Positions 2,988-27,644 of a stretch of DNA of 38,179 bases are shown piece after piece. Source of the stretch: Bdellovibrionales bacterium (lineage in GTDB: Bacteria > Bdellovibrionota > Bdellovibrionia > Bdellovibrionales > UBA1609); the NCBI GenBank assembly GCA_014323935.1, contig JACOND010000012.1:1-38179 (forward strand), read 5' to 3'. How positions within the stretch are numbered: position 1 is the first letter of the stretch; each line of letters starts with the position of its first letter. The notes beneath the pieces are model-generated. The model was not told the DNA's origin, made no database searches, and saw only the letters and a program-made list of their open reading frames with translations. The translations under genes and the position numbers were made by a program.

Positions 2988-3033
2988 TAAAATTCCAAAA
3001 AGCTTTCCAAATTTAATAAAATATTTTAAGTCA

Positions 3034-3135
3034 ATGACATATGAATATGTAGATTCTTCTTTTGTAGTCTTAATATCTATAGAAGAAGATTTATCTTTTG
3101 ACCACAAAATCCTTACAGAGTATAAACTTAAATAA
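3034..3135 (+). CDS. Possible small ORF or remnant between RT and KAP genes (33 aa)
   Basis: An open frame from ATG 3034 encodes a peptide beginning MTYEYVDSSFVV and ending EYKLK. The same frame is open upstream back into the 3' end of the RT gene, so it may be a leftover C-terminus rather than a start-to-stop gene. There is no convincing ribosome binding site. I do not recognise it. Confidence 0.2.
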   Translation: MTYEYVDSSFVVLISIEEDLSFDHKILTEYKLK

Positions 3136-3169
3136 CCTTTAGGCTTCAAAATAATTTTAGAGTAAAATA

Positions 3170-4831: not shown

Positions 4832-5872
4832 GTGTCAAAATACAAATCACTGGAATCACTAGGTATTCCCTATAACATTGAATTCTCCAACAAACTCAGC
4901 AATCTCTTGATGAGAATCGCTGAATGCAAGCCCTTTTTTAAAAGCTCAGTGAGTCATTCCTTAAAGGTAAATCTCCTCAGAAACGCTAAAGTAAAGGCAA
5001 TTACATACTCTAACCAGATAGAGGGTAACCCCCTAAAAGAAGAAGATGTCCAGAAACTCATTTACAGTAAGAAGTCCACTGAACATATTCAGCAAATTGA
5101 AATCCAAAATTATGCTGATGCCTTGGATTTTTTAGAAAAGCTCGCCTTGGACAAGAGATTCATTTCCATTAACGATTTTTGTGATATTCAAAAGCTTGTG
5201 ACAAGTGGCTTGCTTAAAAAAGATCAAGTAGGACGAATCCGCACTATCCCTGTTTCTATTGTCAATGTTTCTACGGGTAATAAAATTGACTCCTGCCCTG
5301 AACCCCATATGTTAAAAGAAGCTTTGAAAGATTTGTGGCAATGGCAGGAGGATACCAAGGAAATAAACCCTTATGCCAGAGCTTTTGCTTTTCATTTTAT
5401 AGCAATTGCAATTCATCCCTTTGCAGATGGAAACGGCAGAACCATTCGATTGATGCAACACTTTCTTCTCCTTCATTCAGGTGAGGAACTCGCTAGGTAC
5501 ATTCCTTCTGAAACAGCAATCATGAAACACCGAAAGGAATACTATGCAGTGATTTGTCAAACAAAAAAATTAGGGCGACTCACTCCTATGCTTGAGTTTT
5601 TAGCAGATTGTTTTTGTGAAGTTGCAGAATCTGTGACAAAAGAAGCCAGGAAAATATTACGAAAGGAGTCCTACACACCAGAAAACAGGCAACATGAAAT
5701 TATAAAATTAGTAAAAAAGAAAAAAGAAATTCAGATCAAAGATGTAATAAAGCTTTTCTCCGATGTGCCAAGAAGAACACTGGAAAGAGATATGAAATCT
5801 CTTTGCGAAGAGAAAAAATTAAAAGCAAAGGGAGAAAAAAAAGCAAGAGCTTACATTTTAAATGGTAAATAA
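4832..5872 (+). CDS. Fic domain protein (AMPylase) with C-terminal winged helix
   Basis: 346 aa. The Fic active site HPFADGNGR starts at residue 195 (His195), matching HxFx(D/E)GNGRxxR, so transfer of AMP (or another nucleotide part) to a target hydroxyl is expected. Upstream, 'SNQIEGN' (Ser60-Glu64) fits the inhibitory (S/T)xxxE(G/N) helix, so this is a self-inhibited class II Fic protein. The C-terminus ('IKDVIKLFSDVPRRTLERDM' and following) is a DeoR/ArsR-like winged helix. The start is GTG at 4832, with AGAGG 6 bases upstream. It is monocistronic. The target is unknown. It is intact, unlike the genes downstream. Confidence 0.9.
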   Translation: MSKYKSLESLGIPYNIEFSNKLSNLLMRIAECKPFFKSSVSHSLKVNLLRNAKVKAITYSNQIEGNPLKEEDVQKLIYSKKSTEHIQQIEIQNYADALDFLEKLALDKRFISINDFCDIQKLVTSGLLKKDQVGRIRTIPVSIVNVSTGNKIDSCPEPHMLKEALKDLWQWQEDTKEINPYARAFAFHFIAIAIHPFADGNGRTIRLMQHFLLLHSGEELARYIPSETAIMKHRKEYYAVICQTKKLGRLTPMLEFLADCFCEVAESVTKEARKILRKESYTPENRQHEIIKLVKKKKEIQIKDVIKLFSDVPRRTLERDMKSLCEEKKLKAKGEKKARAYILNGK

Positions 5873-6510: not shown

Positions 6511-7451
6511 AATCAACCAAAGATCATGCATATAGGTTTATTGATTTGTTTGCTGGCATAGGTGGATTAAGGCTTGCTTTTCAAGGTCTTGGTGGCTCAT
6601 GTGTTATGTCTAGTGAGAATGACGAACAAGATTACTTATAATGAAAATTTTAATGATATTCCTTTAGGAGATATAAGAGAATTGTCTTATAAAATAATTC
6701 CAGATCATGAAATACTGCTTGCTGGATTTCCTTGCCAGCCGTTTAGTTATTCAGGATATAAAAAAGGCTTTAAAGATGATAGAGGAACTTTATTTTTTGA
6801 AATACTTAGAATTTTAAAAAATAAAAAGCCTAAAAGCTTTCTTTTAGAGAATGTAAAAGGCTTAACAAGTTTAAATGAAGGTAAAATTTTAAAAAGCATG
6901 ATTTTATCTTTAGAGGATTTAGGCTATAGCATATATCAAAAAGTTTTAAACACAAAAAATTATGGCAACACTCCGCAAACAAGAGAAAGAATTTATATTG
7001 TAGGTTTTAGGGACAAGGTTGATTTTAAATTTCCACAGCCAATTAAATTAAACAAAGGCATTTCCGATCTTTTATTAAAAAAAAACAGGAAAGCTTTTTT
7101 TATTATGAAGGTTCTCTTATTTACAATATTTTAAAGAAACAAATAAAAGAGCATAATACTATTTATCAATGGAGACGAAATTATGTAAGAAAAAATAAAT
7201 CTAACGTTTGTCCTACTCTTACTGCAAATATGGGAACTGGTGGACACAATGTCCCTCTTATAAAAGATAGATATGGGATAAGAAAACTAACCCCAAGAGA
7301 ATGTATAAGATTTCAGGGTTTCCCAGACACTTTTAAACTTCCTAAAATAGCAAGGTCTCATCTTTATAAACAAATTGGAAACAGCGTCTCTGTTCCTGTG
7401 ATAAAAAGAATAGCTAAGGAAATGAAGAAATGTCTAAAAAATGGTCAGTAA
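6511..7451 (+). pseudogene. DNA cytosine-5 methyltransferase, frameshifted
   Basis: Three frames together make one C5-cytosine methyltransferase: motif I '[16 protein letters not shown]' (6534-6581), motif IV 'LLAGFPCQPFSYSG' with the catalytic Cys (around 6716-6757), motif VI 'ENVKGL' (6847-6864), motif VIII 'QTRERIYIVGF' (around 6979-7011), the target-recognition part, then 'GNSVSVPVI' (motif X) to a stop at 7451. There is a frame change near 6620-6640 and another within A/T runs near 7075-7105. No in-frame ATG precedes motif I, as a stop lies just upstream. It would have protected DNA from the adjacent endonuclease, with which it overlaps by 22 bases. Confidence 0.85.
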
Positions 7452-7907: not shown

Positions 7908-8115
7908 CTGATATGATAAATACTCTTAGCCCATTGTTTTATCTTTTCTTTGTATCTATATTTTTTTATGAAACTCTTTTTTAAGATTTTTGTATTTGTT
8001 TACTACATTCTATACTTCTTCATAATCCATAGGTAAATAGGGATTAGGAAAATCTTCTATTCTTTTGTCAAGAACATCATAAAATAATTTTTTTTTCAAT
8101 ATCAGTTATCTTTTG
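7908..8115 (-). pseudogene. Partial, degenerate copy of the 9282-9749 gene
   Basis: Bases 7908-8115 align closely, with small gaps, to about 9263-9460, which is the 3' half of the gene at 9282-9749 plus a few bases of the small downstream ORF start. It encodes a broken version of '(D)FPNPYLPMDYEE' and the Lys/Tyr-rich tail. Together with the intact gene it forms a direct repeat flanking alkD. I see no gene in 8116-8362. Confidence 0.7.
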
Positions 8116-9281: not shown

Positions 9282-9749
9282 CTATTGCTTTATCTTTTTT
9301 TTATACCCATATTTTTTATGAAATTCTCTTTTAAGATGTTTGTATCTCTTTGCTATACTTTTTCCTTCTTCATAATCCATTGGTAAATAAGGATTAGGAA
9401 AATCTGCTATTCTTTTTTCAAGAACCTCGTAAAGGAAATGTTTTTCAATATCAGTTATCTTACCATCAATTTCTTTTTCTCTTAATTCATCAAATCTTTT
9501 ATTTAAAAAATCAATGTCATCAAAATTATTTCGTATAACATCCCATTTAGTAAGAGGAAGAAATGAATCAGAATATGTTGGTATCATCTGTTTAGAATCT
9601 AAACTCCTATTAGGATTCAACAAAAAGTAACTTTCATTTCTGTCGTTAATACCACTATTTATCTGTGATAACATTTCTGGTTGATTAAAGAGATCAAATC
9701 GCAAAACATAAGAGCTATCTTCATCAAATAAAATAGTTTTTTTAATCAT
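9282..9749 (-). CDS. Unknown 155-aa protein, first gene of the alkD operon
   Basis: Starts ATG 9749 with GTGAG about 5 bases upstream. The N-terminal half has 'LFDEDSSYVLRFDLFNQPEM'; the C-terminal half is charged and ends in a Lys-rich tail. It contains 'DFPNPYLPMDYEEGKS' and 'ITDIEKHFLYEVLEKR', the latter probably helical. There are no membrane segments and I recognise no family. A partial duplicate of its 3' half lies at 7908-8115, showing a local duplication. Upstream lies another broken gene on the same strand. Confidence 0.6.
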   Translation of the reverse strand: MIKKTILFDEDSSYVLRFDLFNQPEMLSQINSGINDRNESYFLLNPNRSLDSKQMIPTYSDSFLPLTKWDVIRNNFDDIDFLNKRFDELREKEIDGKITDIEKHFLYEVLEKRIADFPNPYLPMDYEEGKSIAKRYKHLKREFHKKYGYKKKIKQ

Positions 9750-10285: not shown

Positions 10286-10881
10286 GATTTTCAACTTTAT
10301 TGAATTTTTGTCAATAATAAAAAATCATTCTAAATAATTCTTGATATTTAATAAAGATATCCAATAAAAGAAGCTTTATAGAATATCTCCTTAATTGAAG
10401 GTTCTTTCTTGTAAAATAAGTTTTTTTAAAAAATGGAAAATCAAAAAAAGATAAAGGATACTCCAACCTTTTTTTATAAAGATGAAGATATAAAGAAAGT
10501 AAGATATTTCTTTTGTAGCCATTGATAAAGCTTGTTATTTGACATTATAGAACAAAATCCTTAAACCTGCATTTAAAAAACCAAGAAGCTTTTTGTAAAG
10601 TCCACTAAAAGAGATTTAACAGACCAATCAAAAATAAATATCTAAAGAATAAACTTATCTGTTATCATTTGAACTTTGAGTATTCTACTCTTCCTATATC
10701 AAATTTTGGCTTGAAACATTAGAAACACATTAAACATCTATTTTTAATAACTTCTTCTAAAGACACAAAAAACTAAAAATTTATTCTTTGAAATTTAAAT
10801 CAAAAAATCACTGGAGGAGAATAAAACTGAATATCCTTACTTTTAAAAGAAAGAAAATTCCTTATTATCGTTTTAAAATCA
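10286..10881. other. Gene-free AT-rich stretch
   Basis: No ORF with a ribosome site or protein-like composition is seen on either strand, and no obvious repeats other than A/T runs. It may be decayed DNA between the alkD operon and the CRISPR-Cas locus. Confidence 0.5.
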
Positions 10882-10917
10882 CTCTCAATGAGGCCCTAAC
10901 TTTCTGTTAGGGAAAAT
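10882..10917 (-). repeat. Solitary inverted CRISPR repeat upstream of cas10
   Basis: Read on the - strand this is a full 36-bp copy of the array repeat, including the CCCTAAC-AGAAA-GTTAGGG hairpin, with only two mismatches by eye, both in the last five bases (TTGAGAG instead of TTGCGAC). Its orientation is opposite to the array. It lies 345 bp before the cas10 start, with no second repeat nearby. Confidence 0.9.
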
Positions 10918-11261: not shown

Positions 11262-13751
11262 TTGAAAAAAAAAGATCAGGTTGTTTTTTCTGCTTTTTTT
11301 CATGATATAGGAAAACTTTTTGAAAGAGCTGAAGATCTATCAGGTCTACAGGAAATACAAAAATGTATTAAAAACAAATTTCCTTCTGGAACAGATAATA
11401 ATTTGATCAACGTAGCTTCTCATCAACCTTCCAGTATAGAAGAGCATATTGTTACTAAAGCAATTGTTTTAGCCAGCTCAGAAAAAGAAATACAAGAGGG
11501 GGAGCAAAAGGAAAAAAATATCCATAAAAAAACTTTACTGGAACCTCTTTTAGAAAAAATTTCTTTAAAATCTGAAGAAGAAAAAAAAACAAAATATCGT
11601 ATTCCATTAGAACATTTAGATGATGAATGTAACAATATTTTTCCTCAAAAAGGAACTGATCTTGGTTTAGAAGGAGAGAACTTATTATCTAAGGATTTAT
11701 TGGAAAAAAAGTATAAAGACTTAGCTAAAGAATTCCTTCAATCTATTGAGAAACTACCAGAATATAAAGAGGATAGTTTTGAGAGCTTAAGGTCTTTAAT
11801 GCAAAGCTTGCTTTCTCAAACAGAAAGGTTCTTAATTTCTGTTCCAACCAATGTAAGTCATCCTGATATTTCTTTGTTTGATCATTTAAAAATGACAAGT
11901 GCCATTGCAGAATCTTTATATTTATACCACGAACATAATAATAAATTGACAGAAGAAGAGTTAAAAAAAGACGAAGAAAAATTTATATTAGTATGCGGAG
12001 ATTTTTCTGGCATACAAAAATTCATTTATAATATTGTAAGTAAAGGGGCAGCTAAAAGTTTATCCGGAAGATCTCTTTATATCCAGCTCTTTTGTGATGC
12101 TGTTTCTGAATGGATTTTAAGATGTTTAAAACTTTATCCAAATTCTCGTATTTATTCTTCAGGAGGGAAATTTTATTTATTAACATCCAGCCATTTTGAA
12201 GGAGAATTATTAAAAAAAGGGGATGAGTTAAATGAACTCTTATTTGATGAATATCAGGGTGAAATTCACTTAGATATAAGTAGTATCAAAATGACTGAAA
12301 ACGATCTTAAATCTTCTAAACTCTCAGAAAAGTTTGAAGAACTAAGCAGACAATTAAATGAAAAACGTGATCAAAGATTTTTATCCTTGATAAAAGAAAA
12401 ACCCCAAAAGTTTTTTTCTCCAGAGAAGGTTGGTGATAAAGTTTGTGTTATCTGTGGATCTGATAAAGAAGAACAAACAGATTCATCTTCAGACACATCT
12501 AGAAATTGTGAAAAATTTGAAAAACTAGGAAGAGAAATCAGAGAGCTTTTTAAGGAAAAAAAATCAAATGGTCTTTTATGGTTATGGTGCAAAGAAGATT
12601 ATAATCAAATTAAAAATCAAATCGAAAATAACAAAGAAAAAATTCATGAATTTAATTTTTTTTCAACAGATACAAATAAAAAAAATAGTTTTTTTCCTGT
12701 TTTTTTAATAGTTGAAGATATAAATGAAATAAAAGATATCTCATTTAAAAATTCACATTTTGAATTTGTAAATTCTATTCAAGACCCTGAGCCTATCCAA
12801 GGTCTTTCTTTTTCCCATCGTTTTTTATCTGCTCCTGGTGACTTAAATTTAGATGAAATAACAACAAAAGCTAAAGGAATAAAACGTTTTGGAATTCTTA
12901 GAATGGATGTAGACAATTTAGGACAAATTTTTTCAAAAGGACTGAAAAATAAAGATGAAGATTGGGGTTCTTTATCTCGTTATGCCAGTTTATCCCGTCA
13001 GCTAAATACTTTTTTTACAGGTTATTTAAATGTTCATCTTTTAAAAAAAGAGTATTTAAAAGAATCTCAGTTAAAAAAAGAGCAGTCAGAAGAATCTGAT
13101 TGTAAGCTCATTTATGCCGGTGGAGATGACCTTTTTGCTGTTGGTCCTTGGAATGAAATCCCTTGTTTAGCTCATGAGATTCAAAAAAAGTTTAAAGAAT
13201 ACTGTTGTTATAATCCAGACTTAAATCTATCAGCAGGAATAACTTTATTAAGGCAAAAAGAACCTATTTTAATGGGAGCAAATTTAGCAGGTGATGCAGA
13301 GGAGAAAGCTAAAAACTTTAAAAGAATTGAAAAAGATTCGGTGATAGAAAAACAAGCTCTTTGTTTTTTAGATAGCGTGATAGGCTGGGAAGAATATAAG
13401 GAAGTTAAATCTTTACAAGAAGATATAAAAGAACTTGTAGAAAAGACAAAAAGTCATGCTCTGCTTCAAGTTTTGTATTCTATTGAAAGAGAAGAAGAAT
13501 CTTTAAAAGAAGGTAACAAAGAGTATAGGTTATGGAGACATCGTTTTGTGTATCATATTTCTAGGCTTTTAGAAAGAACAAAAGATAGTAATGATATAAA
13601 ACAAAAAATTATAAAATTACAAGACTTAATTTTAGGCAAACCTCAAGAAGATGAAAAACATAAGAGACGATTAGAGTATCTTTATTTGCCAGTTTGTTGG
13701 ACTGATTACCTAGAAAGAAAAGAAGAAAACAACAAAAGTAAAACAGGATAG
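11262..13751 (+). CDS. cas10: Cas10/Csm1, large subunit of type III-A CRISPR effector
   Basis: 829 aa, starting at TTG 11262 behind AGGAG. The N-terminal HD nuclease motif 'FFHDIGKLFERA' (His14-Asp15) is intact, so ssDNA cleavage is possible. 'VCGDFSGIQKFIYNI' (near 246-260) and 'AKSLSGRSLYIQL' are typical of Csm1. A zinc finger ('CVICGSDKEE' with later Cys) lies near 394-425. The second palm has 'FGILRMDVDNLGQIF' and the catalytic 'YAGGDDLFAVG' (GGDD 620-623), so it should make cyclic oligoadenylates when target RNA is bound. A CARF-HEPN RNase gene downstream is the expected receptor. It is the first gene of the cas operon; csm2 follows after 44 bp. Confidence 0.97.
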   Translation: MKKKDQVVFSAFFHDIGKLFERAEDLSGLQEIQKCIKNKFPSGTDNNLINVASHQPSSIEEHIVTKAIVLASSEKEIQEGEQKEKNIHKKTLLEPLLEKISLKSEEEKKTKYRIPLEHLDDECNNIFPQKGTDLGLEGENLLSKDLLEKKYKDLAKEFLQSIEKLPEYKEDSFESLRSLMQSLLSQTERFLISVPTNVSHPDISLFDHLKMTSAIAESLYLYHEHNNKLTEEELKKDEEKFILVCGDFSGIQKFIYNIVSKGAAKSLSGRSLYIQLFCDAVSEWILRCLKLYPNSRIYSSGGKFYLLTSSHFEGELLKKGDELNELLFDEYQGEIHLDISSIKMTENDLKSSKLSEKFEELSRQLNEKRDQRFLSLIKEKPQKFFSPEKVGDKVCVICGSDKEEQTDSSSDTSRNCEKFEKLGREIRELFKEKKSNGLLWLWCKEDYNQIKNQIENNKEKIHEFNFFSTDTNKKNSFFPVFLIVEDINEIKDISFKNSHFEFVNSIQDPEPIQGLSFSHRFLSAPGDLNLDEITTKAKGIKRFGILRMDVDNLGQIFSKGLKNKDEDWGSLSRYASLSRQLNTFFTGYLNVHLLKKEYLKESQLKKEQSEESDCKLIYAGGDDLFAVGPWNEIPCLAHEIQKKFKEYCCYNPDLNLSAGITLLRQKEPILMGANLAGDAEEKAKNFKRIEKDSVIEKQALCFLDSVIGWEEYKEVKSLQEDIKELVEKTKSHALLQVLYSIEREEESLKEGNKEYRLWRHRFVYHISRLLERTKDSNDIKQKIIKLQDLILGKPQEDEKHKRRLEYLYLPVCWTDYLERKEENNKSKTG

Positions 13752-13795: not shown

Positions 13796-14206
13796 ATGAG
13801 TAATAAAAAGAACAACAATTACCATTTAAAAAAAGAAAAAAGCATAGATAAAGACTGGATCAAAACAGCTAATATTAAAGAACTTTTAAATTATGCTGAA
13901 CAAAAAAAACTACAAAGTATTAGTATTACCTCTATAAGAAGAATTTATAGTTCTGTTCTTAAAATTAAAGCTCAGCTTGATAATGGTAATAAAGAATGGA
14001 AAAGAGAACTTTTTCTTTTAAAACCTCGTGTTATTTATTTATCTTCAAAAGAAAAAAAAGGAACAATGTTATCTTTAAAAAATGATATTGTAGAGAGTAT
14101 TGAAGCGATAAAAGAATTAAATGAAGAAAAACAGAAGGAAGAAGAAGCGACTAAAGCCTTTTGTTATTTTATGGAATCTGTTGTGGCTTATCATAAATCA
14201 AAATAA
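13796..14206 (+). CDS. csm2: Csm2, small subunit of type III-A effector
   Basis: 136 aa, all-helical composition. 'SISITSIRRIYSSVLKIKAQL' and 'LFLLKPRVIYLSS' match the Csm2 pattern (usual: T-T-S-QIRK, then LKPKLAY). It forms the inner filament of the Csm complex along the crRNA-target duplex. Good ribosome site (AAGGGAG) 10 bases before the ATG. Size and position between cas10 and csm3 support the call. The C-terminus is Glu/Lys-rich. Confidence 0.9.
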   Translation: MSNKKNNNYHLKKEKSIDKDWIKTANIKELLNYAEQKKLQSISITSIRRIYSSVLKIKAQLDNGNKEWKRELFLLKPRVIYLSSKEKKGTMLSLKNDIVESIEAIKELNEEKQKEEEATKAFCYFMESVVAYHKSK

Positions 14207-14242: not shown

Positions 14243-15046
14243 ATGAGTCAAAAAATACATTCTAAATTATTTATCAAAGGAAAACTCCATACCCTAACAG
14301 GTCTTCATATTGGAGGAAACTCAGGAGGTTTAAAAGTAGGAGGAGTTAATTCGGTCGTTGTCCGTAACCCTTTAGATAACCAACCTTATATACCGGGGTC
14401 TTCTTTAAGAGGAAAAATGCGATCTCTTTTAGAAAGAGCGAGAGGACCAGAAGAAAAGAACTCTGAAGAAGGAGGCTATAATAAAGAAGGACTAGAAAAA
14501 AAGAACTCTGAAGAAGGAGGCTATAATAAAGAAGGACCAGGAACAAATCCCAAAACTTTATTAGGAAAGTTGTTTGGAGTTGGTGCGAGTGAGAAATCTA
14601 ATGAACCCACAAGACTCATAGTAAGGGATTCTTTTTTAACAAAAGAGAGTGCAAAAAAACTTGAATTAGCTTCTAACACTGATATGCCAATGACTGAAGT
14701 TAAAACAGAAGTCAGTATCAATCGTATTTCATCAAAAGCTAATCCTAGAGAAATAGAAAGAGTACCAGCAGGAGCAATATTTGATTTGAATTTCATATTG
14801 ACTCTTTATGATAAGGATGAAGAGATTAAGTTTTTAAATTTATTTTTTGAGTCTTTGAGTCTTATAGAAGGAGATAGTTTAGGAGGTCATGGTTCAAGAG
14901 GTTATGGTAGAGTTCTATTTAAGGAATTGAAAATCTCTCAAAAAACAGTAGAAGATTATAAAAATCCTAAACAAGAAGAACAACAATTTCAAGATTACCA
15001 AATCTTTTTAGAAGCTTTAAAGAATGATAAAAAAAAAGCTATTTAA
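14243..15046 (+). CDS. csm3: Csm3, backbone subunit, with catalytic Asp replaced by Asn
   Basis: 267 aa RAMP protein. 'LTGLHIGG' (18-25), 'PYIPGSSLRGKMRSLLE', 'NRISSKANPREIERVPAGAIF' and the C-terminal glycine-rich 'GGHGSRGYGRV' are typical. In Csm3 of S. epidermidis and S. thermophilus the target-RNA-cutting residue is Asp (D32/D33) in a GAID/GGID context; the aligned residue here is Asn36 in 'VGGVNSVVV' (codon AAT, 14348-14350). Loss of six-nucleotide-interval RNA cleavage is therefore predicted. A 15-residue tandem repeat (KNSEEGGYNKEG twice) is inserted after the GKMRSLLE helix. AAAGGAG ribosome site. Confidence 0.95.
   Translation: MSQKIHSKLFIKGKLHTLTGLHIGGNSGGLKVGGVNSVVVRNPLDNQPYIPGSSLRGKMRSLLERARGPEEKNSEEGGYNKEGLEKKNSEEGGYNKEGPGTNPKTLLGKLFGVGASEKSNEPTRLIVRDSFLTKESAKKLELASNTDMPMTEVKTEVSINRISSKANPREIERVPAGAIFDLNFILTLYDKDEEIKFLNLFFESLSLIEGDSLGGHGSRGYGRVLFKELKISQKTVEDYKNPKQEEQQFQDYQIFLEALKNDKKKAI
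14456..14537 (+). repeat. In-frame 45-nt tandem repeat within csm3
   Basis: AAGAACTCTGAAGAAGG begins at 14456 and again at 14501; about 37 of each 45-base unit are identical. Both units encode KNSEEGGYNKEG. Because the unit is a multiple of three, copy-number change keeps the frame. It sits in a loop region of Csm3 that varies between homologues. Confidence 0.85.
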
Positions 15047-15083: not shown

Positions 15084-16154
15084 ATGAAAGAGGATATAAA
15101 ACTTTATAAATTAAATTTTGATTCTGGTTTTCATATTGACAGTTTTGGAAATCAAATGTACTCAAAAAGCCAAAAGTTCATTCATTCAGATACTCTCAGT
15201 TCCGCTCTAATCTCTTTTTGGGCTACTCAAAAACCTGAAAGCTTTGAGGAGTTCATAAAAGATCCTCCTTTTTTATTAAGTTCAGCTTTTCCTTTTTTTG
15301 ATAATATCTTTTTCTTTCCTGTTATTAAGGGAAAATCTTTATTGTCTAAAGATTCAAAAGATAATAAAGCTTTTAAAAAAGTTAAAAAAATAGAATTTAT
15401 AGCCTATGATTTATGGGAAAAACTATTAAAGAATCCTTCCCTTTATTTAGAATCAATAAATAATCAGGATGATACTTTCTCCCTACCTCTATCTTCAAAA
15501 GAGTATAAAGTTTATTCTTCTTTTTTAGTTCCTAAAAATACCTTTCCAGAAAAAAAAGATTTTGAAAAAGTCTATAAAGAGGAAAAAAATACTAGAACTT
15601 CTGTCAACCGTTTAAGTAACAAAGTTGAAGAAGCTGAAGAAGGAAATTTGTTTCAGTTTTCAACTACAAGATATTCCAGTAAAAAGAAAGCAGGGCTTTA
15701 TTTTTTAGTTAAATTTTCATCCTCAAAAGTAAAGTCAGACTTTGAGTTCCTTTTGTCTTTACTTGGAGATACTGGAATAGGAGCAGATAAAAGCAGTGGT
15801 AAAGGTCAGTTTTCTTTTGAAGAAGTAGATTGCCCTATAAAGCAGTTTTACAGTGATGAACCTTCTTTTGCTTATAACTGTTCTTTATTTTCTCCTTCTA
15901 TTAAAGAACTAGAAGATAAATCTTGGATACAAAAATCAAAGTATGAATTAATAAGAAGAAGAGGATGGATTCACAATTATTCCTTTAGAAAAAAAAGCAT
16001 CTTTATGTTTAAAGAGGGAAGTTGCTTCCCTATTTCAAAGGAAAATTCTTTAAAAGGAGAGATGAAAGATGTGAGTCCAGACTTAAAACAATTAGATCAT
16101 AAAATCTACCGTGATGGCAGAGCTTTTTTTATTTACTTTAAAAGGAAGGATTAA
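15084..16154 (+). CDS. csm4: Csm4, crRNA 5'-handle-binding subunit
   Basis: 356 aa. The N-terminal 'IKLYKLNFDSGFHI' followed by 'IHSDTLSSALISFW' is typical of Csm4, as is 'LLGDTGIGADKSSGKGQF' (about residues 228-245), a glycine-rich RAMP loop. It caps the complex with Cas10 and holds the repeat-derived 5' tag of the crRNA. ATG 15084 has AAGGAG about 10 bases upstream. The stop (16152-16154) lies one base before the csm5 ATG. Confidence 0.93.
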   Translation: MKEDIKLYKLNFDSGFHIDSFGNQMYSKSQKFIHSDTLSSALISFWATQKPESFEEFIKDPPFLLSSAFPFFDNIFFFPVIKGKSLLSKDSKDNKAFKKVKKIEFIAYDLWEKLLKNPSLYLESINNQDDTFSLPLSSKEYKVYSSFLVPKNTFPEKKDFEKVYKEEKNTRTSVNRLSNKVEEAEEGNLFQFSTTRYSSKKKAGLYFLVKFSSSKVKSDFEFLLSLLGDTGIGADKSSGKGQFSFEEVDCPIKQFYSDEPSFAYNCSLFSPSIKELEDKSWIQKSKYELIRRRGWIHNYSFRKKSIFMFKEGSCFPISKENSLKGEMKDVSPDLKQLDHKIYRDGRAFFIYFKRKD

Positions 16155-16155
16155 G

Positions 16156-17550
16156 ATGAAAAATAAAGGAAAAAACTTTTCTGAAAAAATGATTTTAGAA
16201 ACCTATACTCCCCTTCATATTGGATCAGGAGAAGAGCTTAAAGAAGATGTTGATTTCATAAAAGAAAATAATAGTTATTTTGTCGTAGATATTCAAAAAA
16301 CTTTAGATTCTATACAATCAGAAGATAGACAGTTAAATAAATATTTTGATACAGCTCAACTAACTGATCTGTTAAAAATTTCAGAAGAAAGACAGGGGTA
16401 TACTTTAAACCCTCTTACAGTAAACAATAGCCTCAATGGTAAAAAAGATATTAGAGAATACTTAAAAGATGTTTTTTTTAAACCTATCCTTCCTGGTACT
16501 TCTTTAAAAGGAGGAATCAGGACTGCTTTATGGAATTTAGGACTAAGGAAAAATAACAACCTGGATTATATTGGAAAAAAACTAGAAAAAGAAATTTTTG
16601 GTTCAAATCCTCAAAAAGATATTATGAGATGTTTAAAAGTGTCTGATGCTTATTTTGAAAAAGAGCATTTAGCTTTAGGAGATATTCGGATTACCAACGT
16701 TTCTAATAATAAAATCAAATGGAAGAATTTAGCTACTAAAAAAAATATAGATGAATGGGAATTAGCAAAAGGAATTTATCCTGAAGTTGTTAAAGCTGAA
16801 TCTAAAGCTGAGTTTCTCTTTTCTTGGGATGAGTTTTTACTTAATGATATTTCATGGACAGATATTAATAATAATATAAAAAACTCACTTGGAAGCTATA
16901 GCAAATTAAAAGATTTTTTAAACGACTATGCCTTAAGAATGATAGAAAATGAAATCCAATTTTTTAAGACTTATGAGTATCCCCTACCGATAGAATTTTA
17001 TGAAAAATTAAAAAGTGAAATAGAAAAAGATAAAACAAATACAGCTTGGTTAAGGCTTTCTTGGGGAAGTGTTTGGACAGGTATGACAGGGCTTACAAAT
17101 GAACTTTTAAATGAACCCTATATGAAAGATATAAAACAAAAGATCAATCAGAGAAAAAAAAATAAAAATATTGATTATCCTAAAACTAGAAGGCTTCTTG
17201 TAGACAAGGGAAACCCACAGATACCTATGGGCTGGGTTAAGTTATATCCTTCTGATGAAACAGTTAGAAACCCTTATAGAAAAGCTTTAAAAACAAACTC
17301 AAAAATTTCTAACTCCAGTTTTTCATCTATTTTAAGTAAAGCGATTCAGGAGATTAAGAGTAAAAACAATATCCCCACAACTGAGGAGGTTTTTAAAGGG
17401 AAATCTTTAGCAGACTATTATCAAAATATAAAGGACCTAGAACAGAAAAAGAAAGTCCAAGAAGAGATAAAAAAATACTGGATAGAAAAAGAATGGTGGG
17501 ATAATCCATCTAGAAACCAAAAAAAACTAAAAGCTATTTATGAATACTAG
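16156..17550 (+). CDS. csm5: Csm5, RAMP subunit at the crRNA 3' end
   Basis: 464 aa from ATG 16156. 'LETYTPLHIGSGEEL' at the start, 'FKPILPGTSLKGGIRTAL' (about 113-130) and the later 'GWVKLYP' are Csm5-like. I chose 16156 because AAAGGAAGG lies just upstream and the csm4 stop is directly adjacent. An ATG at 16111 is in frame but lies inside csm4 with a poorer site and adds a non-conserved stretch. Csm5 is needed for crRNA 3' maturation in characterised III-A systems. The end overlaps the cas6-like start by 11 bases. Confidence 0.93.
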   Translation: MKNKGKNFSEKMILETYTPLHIGSGEELKEDVDFIKENNSYFVVDIQKTLDSIQSEDRQLNKYFDTAQLTDLLKISEERQGYTLNPLTVNNSLNGKKDIREYLKDVFFKPILPGTSLKGGIRTALWNLGLRKNNNLDYIGKKLEKEIFGSNPQKDIMRCLKVSDAYFEKEHLALGDIRITNVSNNKIKWKNLATKKNIDEWELAKGIYPEVVKAESKAEFLFSWDEFLLNDISWTDINNNIKNSLGSYSKLKDFLNDYALRMIENEIQFFKTYEYPLPIEFYEKLKSEIEKDKTNTAWLRLSWGSVWTGMTGLTNELLNEPYMKDIKQKINQRKKNKNIDYPKTRRLLVDKGNPQIPMGWVKLYPSDETVRNPYRKALKTNSKISNSSFSSILSKAIQEIKSKNNIPTTEEVFKGKSLADYYQNIKDLEQKKKVQEEIKKYWIEKEWWDNPSRNQKKLKAIYEY

Positions 17551-18298
17551 GAATCAAAAAATAACAACCGCTTATTTTGTTCTTTTAGACATTCCAAAAA
17601 TATCCTCTAAAAATACATTAAAAGCAGGAGAGAATCTAAGATCTTCTTTAATGGGCTTAGCCAAACAGCTTTCAGGAAAACAATTTATTCCTAGTGAAAT
17701 ATCAGGACATAATTTAAGCCCTAATAACAAACATGAGCATTTTTTTTATTTACCCATTGATTCACAAAATACCGGTTGGATTGATTCTTTTTTTATTTAC
17801 TGTAAAAAAGGATTTAGTGAGTCATCTCTTCAAACTCTAAGAAGTTTATCATGGATAAAAAATAAAAGAGGAGAAAAACAAAATTTAGTATTAGAAAATT
17901 TTGGAACTGAAAATGATTTTAAAAACCGTTTTTCTTTTTTTCAAGAATCTAAGCTATGGCAATCTCATACTCCTTACTTTCATCCTTGGTATAAAAAAAA
18001 GAATTTTTCATTATTTGATCAATTAAGAAAAGAGTGTCACTTAAGAGAATGGCCTGAGTTAAAATCAATAAAACTGATTCCTTTTATTGAAAAAAAAGAT
18101 CGACGATTTTATCCTTTTCAATTTAAAAAATTTAGATATAAAAAACATTTGTCACAGCCAGATAAAAGAGGGGGTTTTTGGAAATTAGAATTTTCTAAAC
18201 CGGTGCAAGGTCCTATTTCGCTAGGTTTTAGCTGTCATTTTGGTTTAGGCTTATTCTCAGCTCTCAAAGAAGAAAATCAAATAAAAGAGGCTTGTTAA
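17540..18298 (+). CDS. cas6: Cas6-like crRNA processing protein (Csb2-like)
   Basis: 252 aa. 'LSGKQFIPSEISGHN' and 'KHEHFFYLPID' followed by 'GWIDSFFIYCKKGFSESSL' resemble the Cas6-like domain of Csb2 (GSU0054) proteins of type I-G/I-U, with candidate catalytic His in H-x-H. The C-terminus 'GPISLGFSCHFGLGLF' is the glycine-rich RAMP loop of the Cas6 superfamily. It is shorter than full Csb2. It should cut the repeat hairpin of pre-crRNA. The locus has no other Cas6. The start overlaps csm5, suggesting coupled translation. Confidence 0.75.
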   Translation: MNTRNQKITTAYFVLLDIPKISSKNTLKAGENLRSSLMGLAKQLSGKQFIPSEISGHNLSPNNKHEHFFYLPIDSQNTGWIDSFFIYCKKGFSESSLQTLRSLSWIKNKRGEKQNLVLENFGTENDFKNRFSFFQESKLWQSHTPYFHPWYKKKNFSLFDQLRKECHLREWPELKSIKLIPFIEKKDRRFYPFQFKKFRYKKHLSQPDKRGGFWKLEFSKPVQGPISLGFSCHFGLGLFSALKEENQIKEAC

Positions 18299-18313: not shown

Positions 18314-19651
18314 ATGTATAACTATCAGCTTATTATTACAGTAGGAACAAGCCCTGAACCGATTAAAAAAAGCATTGAGCAAATCAAACCTAAAAAAATT
18401 ATTTTTATAGCGTCTAAGAAATCTGAAGATATTTTTTTAGAAAACCTAAATAAAGAAGAAAGTAAAATGAATATAGAACAACGATATAATAGACAATGGA
18501 TTACTTTAGAAGACTTTCACAATATACAAAAAATAACTGAAAAAATTATACAAGAAGTCAAAATAGAGCATAATAACTGGATTAAACATGGAGAAAATTA
18601 TTTATCTGTCTTAGATTTTACAGGAGGGACTAAAGCCATGGTTGCTGCCTTGACTTTATGTGCTTATAATTGGAAACAGTATGAATTCAGATATACATCA
18701 GTAAAAACAGAGCAAAAAGTAAGTGTTATACCAGGAACTGAAAAAATTATAAAAGTTGATAATCCTTTAGAGATATATGGTTATCAAGTTATAGAAGAGG
18801 CAATTTTATTATTTAATTCTTACAGTTACTCAGAAGCTCATGAAAAAATATTAAACTTTATAGAAAATAATAAAAACAATCCAGACAAAAAAAAGAGTGA
18901 GCTTTTTGTAATTAAAGAGTACTTTGATTTTTTTAAAAAATGGGATAATTTTAATCATAAAGATGCTCAAAAAAAAATAGGTCATTTGGAGGGTAAATTA
19001 AATGATCTGAAAGCAGGTTTTCGTCCTTTTATAAATTCAGAGTTTAAAAAAAATATTGAAGGAAATATTAAAGACTTCAGTGATTATTTTAATAAAATGA
19101 TAAATAATAAAAATGAAGTTAAAAACTCTCCTTATTTGATAGCAGATTTAATTGCAAATGCTTATAGAAAATCAAAGCAGGGAAAATATGATGATGCTAT
19201 CGCTAGACTTTATAGATCGTTTGAGGCTATGGCTCAGTATCAACTATTAGAAAAATATCAAATAGATACGAGTAAGGTAGATGATGAACAATTAATACCG
19301 GAGTTAAAAAAGAAGTATGAGAAAAACAAAAAAGATATAAAATTAGGTCTGCAAGAAAGTTTTTTATTATTAAAAGATAAAAAAGATGTTTTAGGAGAAT
19401 ATTTTTATGAACTAAAACTTCACACAGAAATTTCACCTCTTTCTCTAAGAAATAAATCTATTTTAGCTCATGGTTTTGAGTCAATGAAAGAAAAAAATTT
19501 TAACCAGTTGTTAGATGTAAACTTAAAACTATTTAAGCATCTTCAAAAAGAAAAAAAGATTTTTAATATGTCAGATAATAAAGACCTTAAAGAAGAATTT
19601 AAAAAACTAGAAGAAGAAGGAAAAGCTCCTTTTTTTCCAAAGTTAAATTAG
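18314..19651 (+). CDS. CARF-HEPN ribonuclease, TIGR02710-like (Csm6/Csx1 class)
   Basis: 445 aa. The N-terminal CARF domain starts 'LIITVGTSPEPIKKSI' and has 'LDFTGGTKAMVAAL' (about residues 101-114), the nucleotide-binding DxTGGTK motif of TIGR02710 proteins. The C-terminal helical part ('DDAIARLYRSFEAMAQYQLL') ends in 'LRNKSILAHGF', a HEPN-type R-x6-H (Arg379, His386). Cyclic oligoadenylate from Cas10 should bind CARF and switch on RNA cleavage. A good AGGA ribosome site is 7 bases before the ATG. Which ring size it senses and whether it degrades the ligand cannot be read from the sequence. Confidence 0.88.
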   Translation: MYNYQLIITVGTSPEPIKKSIEQIKPKKIIFIASKKSEDIFLENLNKEESKMNIEQRYNRQWITLEDFHNIQKITEKIIQEVKIEHNNWIKHGENYLSVLDFTGGTKAMVAALTLCAYNWKQYEFRYTSVKTEQKVSVIPGTEKIIKVDNPLEIYGYQVIEEAILLFNSYSYSEAHEKILNFIENNKNNPDKKKSELFVIKEYFDFFKKWDNFNHKDAQKKIGHLEGKLNDLKAGFRPFINSEFKKNIEGNIKDFSDYFNKMINNKNEVKNSPYLIADLIANAYRKSKQGKYDDAIARLYRSFEAMAQYQLLEKYQIDTSKVDDEQLIPELKKKYEKNKKDIKLGLQESFLLLKDKKDVLGEYFYELKLHTEISPLSLRNKSILAHGFESMKEKNFNQLLDVNLKLFKHLQKEKKIFNMSDNKDLKEEFKKLEEEGKAPFFPKLN

Positions 19652-19696: not shown

Positions 19697-21412
19697 ATGG
19701 AAGAAAAAGAAAAAAGATCTATTCCTATTCAATTAGATTTGTTACCAAAAAAAGAAGATATCCTTATTCCCGCAAGCTCAATTAATGCCAGTCAGTATTG
19801 TAGAAGGTTAGCTTATTTGCAATTTATTCATCAAGAAAGAAAAGAGACCTCAGATACTATAAAAGGAAAAAGAGTCCATAATCGAGTTGATAAATCAAAT
19901 TCTCTTTTACCTTCTCCTGAGGAGTTGATTGATAATAATAAAAAGATACAATCTCGCTCTGTGACTTTGTCTTCTGAAAGACTCAATCTTATTTCAAGGA
20001 TGGATTTATTAGAATCAGAAAATGGCTTTATTGTTCCTATAGAGTATAAAAAAGGATCTCTTCCTAGAAATAGAGAAAGTGAGGAACTCTTACCTGAAGA
20101 AGCTCAACTTGCAACTCAAGCTTTAATTTTAAAAGATAATGGTTACCTTTGTGAAAAAGGAATGATTTATTATGCAGAAAGTGAAAAGAGAGTCATTGTA
20201 AATTTTAATAAAGATTTATTTGAAAAAACAAAAAAAATCATTGATCAATTTAAAGAAGATATTAAAAGCTCATCTTCCCCGAAACCTCTGAAAGACAGTG
20301 CAAAATGTCCTCGTTGTTCTTTAGTTGAGATCTGTTTGCCAGATGAATTTCATTATATAGAACAACAAAAAACAAAAAAGATAAGACCTATTTCTTTAAA
20401 ATCTGAGTCTAAGTTTCCTGTTTATGTACAAGCTTATAGAGGGCAAATTTCTAAAAAAGGGTATCGCTTAGAAATTAAAACCGATGAAGAAGAGATAAAA
20501 TCTGTTCCTATTATGGATATCTCTCAATTGGTTTTAATGGGTAATGTTTCTATCAGCACTCCTTGTTTACATGAACTCATGAATCGAGAAATCCCTGTTT
20601 CATGGCATTCTTACAGTGGATGGTTTTTAGGAATTTCTCAAGGGATTGGTCATAAAAACTCTTCTTTAAGAGAAGCACAATATAGAAAATCTTTTGACAA
20701 AGATTTTTGTTTAAAATTTGCAAAGAGTCTTGTGAAAGCTAAAATCTACAATTGCCGTACTCTTATTAGAAGAAATTGGCGAGGAACACATAAACCAGAA
20801 AATCTTCTCATGATTTTAAAAAAATATGCAGAAAAAACAAACCTGGCAAAAAACATACAAGAGCTTTTAGGGATAGAAGGTTATTCGGCACATGAATATT
20901 TTCAATCCTTTCATTTAATGATTAAAAATAAAGAAAGCTATCCTTTTCATTTTACTAAGAGGAGTCGACGTCCCCCTGAAGACCCTATCAATTTAATGTT
21001 ATCTTTTTCCTATTCTTTGTTAACAAGGCTTTGGACAGTGACCTTAAGTTCTACAGGTTTTGATGCTTTTAGAGGTTTTTACCATCAATCTAAATATGGC
21101 AGACCTGCTTTAGCTCTTGATATGATGGAGCCTTTTCGTCCTTTGATTTGTGACTCTACAGTTTTACTTGCAGTAAATAATAAAGAAATTCAAGAAAAAG
21201 ATTTTATATACAATGCTGGAAAAGTAGGATGGAAGCCTGAAGGTAAAAAAAAATTCATATCTGTTTTTGAAAGACGTCTAAGTCAAAAAATAAAACATCC
21301 TGTTTTTAAGTATGAAGTGAGTTATAGGCAGTTATTAGAAGCACAATCTAGATTGTTAGTTCGGTATCTTTTTGATGAAATAAAAGAGTACCCTCATATT
21401 ATAACGAGATAA
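19697..21412 (+). CDS. cas4-cas1: Cas4-Cas1 fusion, spacer acquisition
   Basis: 571 aa. Residues about 18-220 are Cas4: 'INASQYCRRLAYLQF' with the first cluster Cys, 'KGKRVHNRVD', 'ISRMDLLES', 'PIEYKKG' (RecB-type D...ExK) and 'CPRCSLVEIC' with the other Cys. Residues about 235-571 are Cas1: 'LVLMGNVSISTPCLHELM', 'IEGYSAHEYF' (catalytic Glu), 'GFYHQSKYGRPALALDMMEPFRP' (His and acidic residues). The fusion is characteristic of type I-G (I-U) adaptation modules and is unusual beside III-A effector genes. Cas4 trims and orients prespacers for Cas1-Cas2. Same operon; cas2 starts 3 bases after the stop. Confidence 0.95.
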   Translation: MEEKEKRSIPIQLDLLPKKEDILIPASSINASQYCRRLAYLQFIHQERKETSDTIKGKRVHNRVDKSNSLLPSPEELIDNNKKIQSRSVTLSSERLNLISRMDLLESENGFIVPIEYKKGSLPRNRESEELLPEEAQLATQALILKDNGYLCEKGMIYYAESEKRVIVNFNKDLFEKTKKIIDQFKEDIKSSSSPKPLKDSAKCPRCSLVEICLPDEFHYIEQQKTKKIRPISLKSESKFPVYVQAYRGQISKKGYRLEIKTDEEEIKSVPIMDISQLVLMGNVSISTPCLHELMNREIPVSWHSYSGWFLGISQGIGHKNSSLREAQYRKSFDKDFCLKFAKSLVKAKIYNCRTLIRRNWRGTHKPENLLMILKKYAEKTNLAKNIQELLGIEGYSAHEYFQSFHLMIKNKESYPFHFTKRSRRPPEDPINLMLSFSYSLLTRLWTVTLSSTGFDAFRGFYHQSKYGRPALALDMMEPFRPLICDSTVLLAVNNKEIQEKDFIYNAGKVGWKPEGKKKFISVFERRLSQKIKHPVFKYEVSYRQLLEAQSRLLVRYLFDEIKEYPHIITR

Positions 21413-21415
21413 ACC

Positions 21416-21709
21416 ATGAAAGAAGAAAAATTATTTATTGTTTCTTATGATATTACAGATCCAAAAAGATGGAGGAAAATATTTAAAATACTAAATGGAT
21501 ATGGAAATTGGTTACAGTTATCTGTTTTTCAGTGTCAAATGAATGAATTAAAAAAAGAAAAATTAGTTTCAGAATTAGATACTATTATAGATAAATCTAA
21601 AGATCAGATTCTATTTATTGATGTAGGATTGAAAAATAAAGTAAAAACAAAAGTGATGAGTATAGGTAAGAAATTTCAAATGATTGAGAAAAAGCCAATG
21701 ATTTTTTAA
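21416..21709 (+). CDS. cas2: Cas2, spacer integration partner
   Basis: 97 aa, usual length. 'FIVSYDITDPKRWRKIFKIL' (the conserved Asp after Y) and 'GNWLQLSVFQCQM' are typical. It dimerises and bridges two Cas1 dimers. It is the last gene of the cas operon, and the array leader begins just after it. Confidence 0.96.
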   Translation: MKEEKLFIVSYDITDPKRWRKIFKILNGYGNWLQLSVFQCQMNELKKEKLVSELDTIIDKSKDQILFIDVGLKNKVKTKVMSIGKKFQMIEKKPMIF

Positions 21710-21902: not shown

Positions 21903-23389
21903 ATTTTCCCTAACAGAAAGTTAGGGCCTCATTGCGACAAGAAGTGAAAAAGATCTTTATTTTTATTTCTTTTTATTTTCCCTAACAGAAAGTTAGGGCC
22001 TCATTGCGACCTCGAAGCAAAGTTCTCTTGTTACTACAATGAAGTATTTTCCCTAACAGAAAGTTAGGGCCTCATTGCGACGAAAAATTATTCACAATAT
22101 TCCTTTAATTCAGAAGCTATTTTCCCTAACAGAAAGTTAGGGCCTCATTGCGACTTTGGAATTTTGACTTGCTCCAAAAAAAAGTAAAACGAATTTTCCC
22201 TAACAGAAAGTTAGGGCCTCATTGCGACACTAAATCAGAAGTTTTATTTTCCAAAGAATTTATTATTTTCCCTAACAGAAAGTTAGGGCCTCATTGCGAC
22301 ATCTCTTAATCAAAGAGGAATAAGAAGTTTAGATTATTTTCCCTAACAGAAAGTTAGGGCCTCATTGCGACTCGCTTCAATCAGCTTCTTACATTGAATA
22401 TCAAGAAAATTTTCCCTAACAGAAAGTTAGGGCCTCATTGCGACTTATTTCCGTTTGTTGTTTCGTTTTTTTTATTCATATTTTCCCTAACAGAAAGTTA
22501 GGGCCTCATTGCGACTATCGTGCTTTTTGAAGATATGAAAAATCCATCTTCATTTTCCCTAACAGAAAGTTAGGGCCTCATTGCGACTAATTATTATAAG
22601 TAGAAGAATTTTCACTTCCAAATTTTCCCTAACAGAAAGTTAGGGCCTCATTGCGACAAGGAGAAAAAACACTATTGCTTCATGACGCAATAGATTTTCC
22701 CTAACAGAAAGTTAGGGCCTCATTGCGACATGGAAGAACTTGAACCTGTTCTTGGCCAAGTCGCAGGACATTTTCCCTAACAGAAAGTTAGGGCCTCATT
22801 GCGACTTGGACTACCGCCCTCCAAAGATTAGGGCTTTTTGTATTTTCCCTAACAGAAAGTTAGGGCCTCATTGCGACAGTGGTTGTGCAGTAGTTGTGTA
22901 ATGTGTGCATTTAAATTTTCCCTAACAGAAAGTTAGGGCCTCATTGCGACTGATTTCTCTGATTTAAGATCTCGCATACATGGTAAATTTTCCCTAACAG
23001 AAAGTTAGGGCCTCATTGCGACTCTTTTACAATTTTAAATTGTAACAAGATTTCATTTTATTTTCCCTAACAGAAAGTTAGGGCCTCATTGCGACGCCAA
23101 GTGGTCTTTAGGACTATCAAAATGTCTTGAAGGATTTTCCCTAACAGAAAGTTAGGGCCTCATTGCGACATTTGATCTCTGGATACTTTTAAGCCTAATT
23201 GAAAATCATTTTCCCTAACAGAAAGTTAGGGCCTCATTGCGACATTTTTTTATCAAGTTCATAAAAAAATACTCTTGAAATATTTTCCCTAACAGAAAGT
23301 TAGGGCCTCATTGCGACTTTTTAACAACTTTCAATACTTCGTTTTTCATCGAAATTTTCCCTAACAGAAAGTTAGGGCCTCATTGCGAC
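21903..23389 (+). CRISPR. CRISPR array, 21 repeats of 36 bp, 20 spacers
   Basis: Repeats start at 21903, 21975, 22046, 22119, 22193, 22265, 22336, 22409, 22480, 22552, 22622, 22694, 22770, 22842, 22915, 22987, 23060, 23134, 23208, 23282 and 23354. Each begins ATTTTC, holds the 7-bp stem CCCTAAC-AGAAA-GTTAGGG, and ends CATTGCGAC, so the expected 8-nt crRNA tag is ATTGCGAC. All 21 copies look identical, including the last. Spacers are 34-40 bp and all differ. The leader with its promoter is on the cas2 side. Confidence 0.99.
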
Positions 23390-23551: not shown

Positions 23552-23879
23552 TTATTAATTACACCTTTTACTTGTGTTTATTAGGGATTAGCCTACGGAA
23601 TGACTTTTCTCCCTGAGCCAGTTGAATTTAGACAGAGATTAACATTAGAAAACTAATAAAATATGGATTAATCTCTGAAAAAAATTATGAATAATATTTA
23701 AATAGATACAACAATCATGATAAAAAAGTTAATTGGTTAGACGCAAACGAAAACGTCATTTGTTTTAATTGCAGTATTGGATTAAGAAAGGGATTTTAAT
23801 GTCATTAGAATTGCAGTTATTTTTTTTGTAGTTTTAATTCTTTTTGGAAAAAGAAAAGTTAAAAAAATAGAGTATGCTT
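23552..23879 (+). other. Decayed stretch between array and degenerate repeat
   Basis: A broken + strand frame reads 'NIRKLIKYGLISEKNYE', a stop, then 'NWLDANENVICFNCSIGLRKGF', which has protein-like composition with a CxxC-like pair but no recognised family. It is probably a gene remnant. Nothing else is seen. Confidence 0.35.
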
Positions 23880-23914
23880 ATTTTCTCTAACAGAAAGTAG
23901 AGACTCATTATGGT
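23880..23914 (+). repeat. Degenerate CRISPR repeat beyond the array
   Basis: Same orientation as the array and about 28 of 36 positions identical: ATTTTC, then CTCTAAC-AGAAA-GTAGAG where the array has CCCTAAC-AGAAA-GTTAGGG, then CTCATT. The C-to-T and G-to-A changes in the stem compensate each other, so the hairpin is kept with one bulged base. Confidence 0.75.
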
Positions 23915-24022
23915 ATCTTTTAAGATTAGGACCTTTTATAAGGAAGAAAAACCTTTAAGTCTTTTTCTCAGATTTTCTGACCAAAGTAAAAAGCCTTTTT
24001 CTCAAATACAAAAAGATATGGA

Positions 24023-25042
24023 TTAAAAATTTTTTCGATCTTTTTGTGATTCTTGTTTTTTTAATATCTGAACACCAGTTTTTCCCCATGAGATGCCTGT
24101 TGTATTTTCGTATAATTTTACGAAAGGGCTAATTTTAAAAAAGCCATTGATTAAGATATGAGCCTCCCAAAGGAGTTCCTCAAGAGAAGGGTCAGCATAT
24201 TCGATTTTTAAACCAAATGATTTTAACTTTTTTATTGATAATGGACGAGAATGCATTAGGTGTTCCTCATAACTGGATACATATTTCACAGCTTTTTCTA
24301 TTTTTTCATCAAGGTCTTTTTCTTCATTTTTTTCAAACATATATTGTTTAAGCCAGCTAGAAATTAAAACCTCAGATAATTTTTCTGAGTCTTCACACAT
24401 TTCTAATAACTCTAAAGAAATACTTTTTTCAATAAGGGGAATGTAAGCAGGAAGAGTTTTAGGACCTTCTTTAGAGATTTTTTCTTTTATTTTTTCAAAA
24501 CCCTTCTTTATTACCCTTGCAGGAATATCTTTAAATTGAGGGTCAATAGGGGTTAAAACAGCACTAGGGTGCAAAATGATATTGTTTCCTGAAAGAGCTA
24601 ACATCGTTGCCGCTGAGTAAGCAGAATGTGGGATTAGGAAATCAACCTGTTTAAAATGACGACGTAACAACCCTACAAGCCGTTCTGTAGCATCTGATTT
24701 GCCACCAGGACTTTGTAAAAGTACATCAACAGAGTCACTATTTTTTACTTTTACAGAGTTTATTAAATCCGTAAAACCGTCTATATCTGGGAGATCAATA
24801 AAATTTTGAGAATTTGGAGAAACATTTTCCAAAAATTTTGTTGCATAGACTAATAAAGGTCGACCACGAATGTCTTCAATATCTTTGTAACAATTTTCAC
24901 GTAATGTTAACAAACTAACTGTATTATTTGGTTTTCGTATAAAAGTATAGAAATCTTGGGTGCTTTTAAATTTTATACGATTCTGTTGTGAGGGCGATGG
25001 CATTGTGATTGATCTCGCAGTTTTCTGTTGAATTAAAATCAT
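24023..25042 (-). CDS. SDH_sah-type serine protease (ClpP/SppA fold)
   Basis: 339 aa. 'VDVLLQSPGGKSDATERLVGL' and 'FLIPHSAYSAATMLALSG' (candidate nucleophile Ser in the AYSAATM helix), followed by 'LHPSAVLTPIDPQ', match the serine dehydrogenase proteinase group of the ClpP/crotonase fold. No signal peptide or membrane segment is seen, so it is probably cytosolic. The start is uncertain: ATG 25042 (overlapping the small upstream gene by 77 bases, with AAAGAAAG upstream) or ATG 25003. It is convergent with the CRISPR array. The substrate is unknown. Proteases are known partners of some type III systems, but this family is not one I know to be such. Confidence 0.7.
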   Translation of the reverse strand: MILIQQKTARSITMPSPSQQNRIKFKSTQDFYTFIRKPNNTVSLLTLRENCYKDIEDIRGRPLLVYATKFLENVSPNSQNFIDLPDIDGFTDLINSVKVKNSDSVDVLLQSPGGKSDATERLVGLLRRHFKQVDFLIPHSAYSAATMLALSGNNIILHPSAVLTPIDPQFKDIPARVIKKGFEKIKEKISKEGPKTLPAYIPLIEKSISLELLEMCEDSEKLSEVLISSWLKQYMFEKNEEKDLDEKIEKAVKYVSSYEEHLMHSRPLSIKKLKSFGLKIEYADPSLEELLWEAHILINGFFKISPFVKLYENTTGISWGKTGVQILKKQESQKDRKNF

Positions 25043-25214
25043 AACTGTATACTTTCTTTTTGTCCAAAGCAGTAGCTACTTTCTCTAAAATATCTTTTGT
25101 TTCTTTTAATAAGTTGTCTGTTTCTTTGTATAATTCTAGCATTTCTTGATCGCAGTCCAGAACAGATTTAGGGAACACTTGTTCCGTCACAGATTTTGAT
25201 TTTACCTTTTTCAT
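24966..25214 (-). CDS. Small coiled-coil protein upstream of the protease (82 aa)
   Basis: Starts ATG 25214 and overlaps the protease start. 'LDCDQEMLELYKETDNLLKETKDILEKVATALDKKK' (residues about 19-54) has a heptad-like pattern, with a Lys-rich N-terminus. No family is recognised. The overlap implies co-translation, so it may be an adaptor, inhibitor or substrate of the protease. Confidence 0.55.
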   Translation of the reverse strand: MKKVKSKSVTEQVFPKSVLDCDQEMLELYKETDNLLKETKDILEKVATALDKKKVYSYDFNSTENCEINHNAIALTTESYKI

Positions 25215-25459
25215 ACTATCAATACTTTAGGCTTTTAAAGGTAAATGACACTAAGTATAAAGTCAAGAAAAAAGTTTTTTATAACAGAGAATTTAAGTGT
25301 TTCTATTTTAATAAAAATCTTCTAAAATCCAATAACTTGAATTCATATGACACTTATTGTGTTTAAATTTATATTTTTAGAACCATCAATTATCTTAAAT
25401 TTCTATTTGTATTTCTATTTTTTGTTACCAAATTTTTAATACTTATCAGGATTATCACG

Positions 25460-27553: not shown

Positions 27554-27644
27554 AATTACCCCTTCCTTTTTAAAAAAATTACAAATTTTTTTAATAAACT
27601 ACTTTAGCTAGCTTGTCTTGAATCTCACTTCAATTATCTGCATT

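Follow-up and report, generated by a model that had tools for sequence, protein, structure and literature searches.

The 38,179-nucleotide contig of a Bdellovibrionales bacterium analysed here over its full length (the window) carries what is probably a signalling-only type III-A CRISPR complex, a rare natural variant in which both cutting activities would have been lost while cyclic oligoadenylate (cOA) synthesis was kept. The system is known from one bin. The preliminary description of this DNA had proposed an RNase-dead, signalling-biased complex. An RNase-dead Csm3 is still the best-supported reading, resting on Asn36 and on the precedent of the M. tuberculosis D35A mutant. However, because the HD domain of Cas10 has lost three conserved motifs, the complex looks signalling-only and not signalling-biased.

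The window is one whole contig (C12) of a 1.59-Mb bin of 57 contigs that is approximately 88% complete. Its cas genes run in the order cas10-csm2-csm3-csm4-csm5-Csb2-like-csm6-cas4/1-cas2, followed by a CRISPR array (Table 1), and all nine are open frames. Cas10/Csm1, Csm2, Csm3, Csm4 and Csm5 each score above their NCBIfam cut-offs. By gene content the system is type III-A (Csm), an assignment made from the genes present in a locus whose Csm3 carries Asn36 where the family typically has its catalytic Asp. Contamination by a foreign contig is unlikely: for one gene of this contig, two of three genus-mates have relatives that are 54-55% identical.

Table 1. Features of the type III-A locus in the window, and the locus of Halocatena marina with which it is compared.
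Feature	Position	Strand	Remarks
cas10/csm1	11262..13751	+	829 aa, TTG start; TIGR02578, 548 bits
Degraded HD domain of Cas10	11298..11477	+	alignment with 33 Cas10s
HD dipeptide of Cas10, kept (H14-D15)	11298-11315	+	FHDIGK
Cas10 HH pair, changed to SHQ	11418-11426	+	
Cas10 AD motif, changed to AI (Ile68)	inside 11457-11477	+	
GGDD cyclase motif, intact	13119..13130	+	same in 32/32 relatives having the region
csm2	13796..14206	+	TIGR01870
Conserved Csm2 Arg, kept as IRR	13934-13942	+	equivalence judged from alignment context
csm3	14243..15046	+	267 aa; NCBIfam Csm3 equivalog TIGR02582, 203 bits
Csm3 residue 36 codon	14348..14350	+	AAT = Asn36, where catalytic Asp expected; context GGVNS
Tandem duplication, 45 bp, in frame	14443..14532	+	variable part of csm3
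csm4	15084..16154	+	TIGR01903, 182 bits
csm5	16111..17550	+	first possible start; ATG at 16156; TIGR01899, 78 bits
Csb2/Cas5-6g-like C-terminal half	17540..18298	+	TIGR02165, 72 bits; Cas56g
CARF-HEPN effector (Csm6/Csx1)	18314..19651	+	TIGR02710, PF09670
Csm6 CARF motifs	18341-18361 and 18617-18640	+	conserved in 14 relatives
Csm6 HEPN RNKSILAH (R-x6-H)	19448-19471	+	conserved in 14 relatives
cas4/cas1 fusion, type I-G kind	19697..21412	+	NF049935, 711 bits, above cut-off
cas2	21416..21709	+	TIGR01573
CRISPR array	21903..23389	+	21 identical 36-nt repeats; 20 different spacers, 34-40 nt
Halocatena marina III-A locus (L143; also L144)	NZ_CP109982.1 284767-303420		

In a HMMER alignment with Csm3 proteins of solved structure, residue 36 of the window Csm3 falls in the column of the catalytic Asp, so that the Asn originally read there is confirmed both by codon and by column. 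One solved chain, PDB 6ifk, likewise has Asn in this column ('aigaiNspv'); that chain is S. thermophilus Csm3 with the engineered D33N substitution. The column is Asp in all 35 other Csm3s of a whole-locus alignment and in each of 17 relatives (47-60% identical) found among 84,980 species genomes. A pattern scan that took Asp or Asn equally, a few of whose matches are other Cas7-like RAMPs, gave a GAY catalytic codon in 125/125 matches (596 sampled genomes). These comprise 42/42 from the order of Methylovulum and 83/83 from the phylum of a Desulfobacteraceae genome; a separate scan of the class of a Competibacteraceae genome, with the catalytic codon left open, gave Asp in 7/7. The idea that Asn might be a conserved trait of a Csm3 subfamily is thereby ruled out, every close relative found having Asp. 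Asn36 is a lineage-specific loss, paralleled in Halocatena.

An alternative active-site Asp, which would speak against this reading of Asn36, was not found nearby in the alignment. The sole Asp within residues 1-60 is D45 of NPLDN, where most relatives have Thr. D45 is ruled out as a substitute, being off-site and occurring naturally beside an intact catalytic Asp in relatives L112 and L113. In the near-invariant IDR motif of Csm3 (14717-14725) Asp is likewise replaced, by Asn160. We dropped this as a second inactivating change; INR is found in Halocatena, L119 and L121 as well, and the latter two have a normal catalytic Asp. The AF2 model confirms the fold of Csm3, with the active-site loop (25-38) at low confidence. 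No further Csm3s were found in viral contigs and phages, where the Asp form was equally absent.

Cas10, whose AF2 model matches solved Csm1 chains, had been described as keeping both GGDD and HD. The cyclase motif is indeed intact, as is MDVDN in the alignment, but HD persists essentially as the dipeptide; three conserved motifs are gone and the nuclease site is not intact. The H-x3-T segment is deleted (its His is present in 26/26 relatives having the segment), the HH pair has lost one His (HH in 27 of 31 aligned Cas10s), and Ile68 stands where 30 of the 31 have the Asp of the AD motif. We take the lost residues to be metal-site residues, as in HD nucleases. A hidden frameshift is ruled out as the source of the loss, since cas10 reads through its own frame without a break and the remaining frames are closed. 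The window Cas10 also lacks a zinc-finger Cys and R268. Judged from the two alignments, both intrinsic nucleases of the complex are probably dead.

The remainder of the locus is well preserved in its motifs. The CARF-HEPN RNase gene reported earlier is present, with its family matches and its CARF and HEPN motifs kept, and the system thus combines a GGDD cyclase with a CARF effector. Csm2 retains the Arg for which a general-base role has been proposed in L. lactis Csm (PMC8964682). Between 17540 and 21412, components of the type I-G kind accompany the III-A effector, namely the C-terminal half of Csb2 (Cas5/6g) and a Cas4g/Cas1g fusion, in which the Cas1 His and Asp motif is present. We infer that the Csb2-like protein is a probable crRNA-processing protein of the type I-G kind; none was detectable in the relatives examined. 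The rest of the genome gave no match to a type I-G Cas7, nor did control genomes. Spacer targets were absent among 50,697 phage records, and within the organism's own genome no spacer match rose above the AT-rich background. Single degenerate repeats lie outside the array, one inverted some 340 nt upstream of cas10 (10876-10917, minus strand) and one downstream of the array (23878-23923, plus strand); these are either old array remnants or a crRNA-like regulator.

Other genes of the contig include, within 1329-4489, a retron-like reverse transcriptase whose N-terminal extension is long, adjoining a KAP NTPase that matches PADLOC PDC-S20. A SoFic-like Fic protein and a C5 DNA methyltransferase fragment, the latter looking like a broken restriction-modification gene, are found at 4832-5872 and 6574-7134. 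A direct duplication of 134 nt (7962-8095 and 9312-9445, 84% identical) overlaps an open reading frame at 9282-9749. On the minus strand, 24023-29191 holds defence-like genes: an SDH-type protease, a PifA-like KAP ATPase and a ShosA/ShosT pair whose ShosT appears truncated.

A second natural case came from ten plasmid-borne Csm3s of other lineages, sampled for breadth, nine of which have Asp; the tenth, from the archaeon Halocatena marina, reads IGGVNGPVV, with Asn in the same catalytic column. Its Cas10 reads LSEIGRL against the LHDIGKL of HD-containing proteins and keeps GGDD. The loss of HD and the Csm3 Asn are shared by complete plasmid records from two isolates (NZ_CP109982 and NZ_CP110252); as the csm3 sequence is identical in both, the two may represent one event. 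Like the window, this III-A system pairs a Csm3 Asn and a lost HD motif with an intact GGDD and a CARF effector. It differs in being archaeal, in its distant Csm3 (39% identical), in having csx2 (TIGR02221) and a SAVED protein as effectors where the window has a TIGR02710 protein, and in its ordinary Cas6, with no cas1 or cas2 within the stretch read, against the Csb2-like gene, cas4/cas1 and cas2 of the window. CRISPR repeats are present, and the N-terminus of the SAVED protein looks TIR-like. The nearest plasmid relative of the Halocatena Csm3, from Rhodothermus (46%), has lost the HD motif and kept the Csm3 Asp, which suggests that in this lineage the HD loss may have preceded the Csm3 loss.

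HD is absent from 35% of III-A loci (PMC11229360) and is hence no requirement for type III-A. Both Asn-type systems, in the window and in Halocatena, lack HD, as against 8 of the 39 Asp-type systems examined (Fisher p = 0.055, on rows that are not phylogenetically independent); a strict association is not established at this value, and the pairing of the two losses is suggestive only. In relatives L012 and L113 the Cas10 HD motif is gone and the Csm3 Asp kept, so HD loss recurs alone in this subfamily. HD loss by itself is common, and the loss in Csm3 is the rare element. HD-less III-A systems (L012, L113, Rhodothermus, cyanobacteria) resemble the window in having no usable HD nuclease and an intact GGDD, but apart from Halocatena all eight examined have the Csm3 Asp (L151 read by eye).

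Among characterised systems, the III-A complexes of S. epidermidis and S. thermophilus, which have all three activities, share with the window the order cas10-csm2-csm3-csm4-csm5, a CARF-HEPN effector, and the fold and sequence of Csm3 and Cas10; the window departs from them in its Csm3 Asn, its degraded HD, and its Cas6-like and Cas4/Cas1 proteins of the type I-G kind. The closest functional equivalents are engineered: the Csm3 D35A and HD mutants of M. tuberculosis, RNA-guided cyclases acting via Csm6, which are laboratory-made at one site each and, in Csm3, carry Ala where the window has Asn. With D35A, target cleavage was abolished and cA5/cA6 increased, each mutant gave wild-type plasmid immunity in E. 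coli, and immunity was abolished by loss of the cyclase or of Csm6 (PMC6755085). In S. thermophilus Csm made RNase-dead by D33A, the Cas10 DNase stays active almost unchanged whereas that of the wild type decays (PMC11040160). Types III-G, III-H and VII likewise do not conserve the Cas7 catalytic Asp. However, III-G and III-H keep HD and have lost the cyclase and cOA effectors (PMC12669027), the reverse of the window, and type VII cuts RNA with Cas14. The main text of the Hoikkala survey (PMC11229360) makes no mention of Csm3, Cas7 or Cmr4, and a word-match full-text search of open-licence papers brought up no natural III-A system reported to combine an active cyclase with a dead Csm3.

In the proposed mechanism, the crRNA-loaded complex would bind invader transcripts, upon which Cas10, through its intact GGDD, would make cOA to activate the CARF-HEPN RNase Csm6. 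The complex itself would cut neither target RNA, owing to Asn36, nor DNA, owing to the degraded HD domain, so that the Palm route would be the only one left. With no cleavage of the target, each bound transcript would give a longer or larger cOA output and defence would become more dormancy-like, with immunity delivered via Csm6 alone. Signalling would then have to end when the target dissociates, when Csm6 destroys it collaterally, or when cOA is broken down. In S. islandicus an RNase-dead Cmr4 is toxic, causing autoimmunity via either HD or Palm, although three bacterial Csm systems tolerate a dead Csm3 (PMC9368842). The toxicity implies that an off-switch is needed, which counts against a signalling-only complex when none of the window proteins scanned was recognised as a ring nuclease. 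The case in favour is made by Asn36, by HD damage at three motifs including a deletion, and by the intact GGDD, MDVDN, CARF, HEPN and Cas1 motifs, all as read from the sequence; the 21 identical repeats, the nine open frames, the Halocatena parallel and the engineered Csm precedent point the same way.

The main rival to a signalling-only complex, though an unlikely one, is that the effector module has been decaying since its horizontal transfer to a host with no further need of it, the nuclease sites going first and the cyclase to follow, with no selected function. The genome is the sole carrier of such a system among 369 of its phylum, and degenerate repeats flank the locus. Long end branches (Csm3 1.06, Cas10 1.43), Csm3 differences at 6 of 80 near-invariant columns, and the loss from Cas10 of the zinc-finger Cys and R268 mean that the complex as a whole may be under relaxed constraint and that cyclase function is not certain. 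Decay would nevertheless have had to leave all nine cas genes open, the GGDD, CARF, HEPN and Cas1 motifs intact and the repeats identical, and the same combination recurs in two Halocatena isolates.

Less probable still is an RNase impaired only in part, with Asn36, another residue or deamidation of Asn to Asp leaving useful target cleavage. The residue is followed by Ser in the window and by Gly in Halocatena, and Asn-Ser and Asn-Gly are deamidation-prone pairs; the Csm2 Arg and the remaining active site are also conserved. Against this, Csm3 has no stand-in Asp nearby, and substitution of the Asp, in Ala mutants, is reported to abolish cleavage by the Csm complexes of M. tuberculosis and S. 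thermophilus and to be deleterious in several homologues (PMC6755085, PMC11040160, PMC8964682). An assembly or sequencing error masking a true GAT codon would require one base in a 57-contig bin, yet we consider it very improbable: the prior chance of a mistake at precisely this base is low, the damage to HD extends to a deletion that no single-base error explains, and two complete Halocatena plasmid records carry the same substitution.

If the window complex is signalling-only, nature may have built the signal-only CRISPR complexes otherwise known as laboratory mutants, and these would be ready-made cyclase-only RNA sensors for diagnostics. It is tempting, if tentative, to suppose that such sensors arose repeatedly from type III-A complexes, in a bacterium as well as in an archaeon, both nuclease sites being lost under selection; target binding alone would then determine how long the cOA signal lasts, and defence would be purely effector-driven. 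Target RNA cleavage by Csm3 or Cmr4 is regarded as the switch by which Cas10 is turned off. Natural systems lacking that switch would show whether target cleavage is needed at all, and by what other ways a type III response can be brought to an end.
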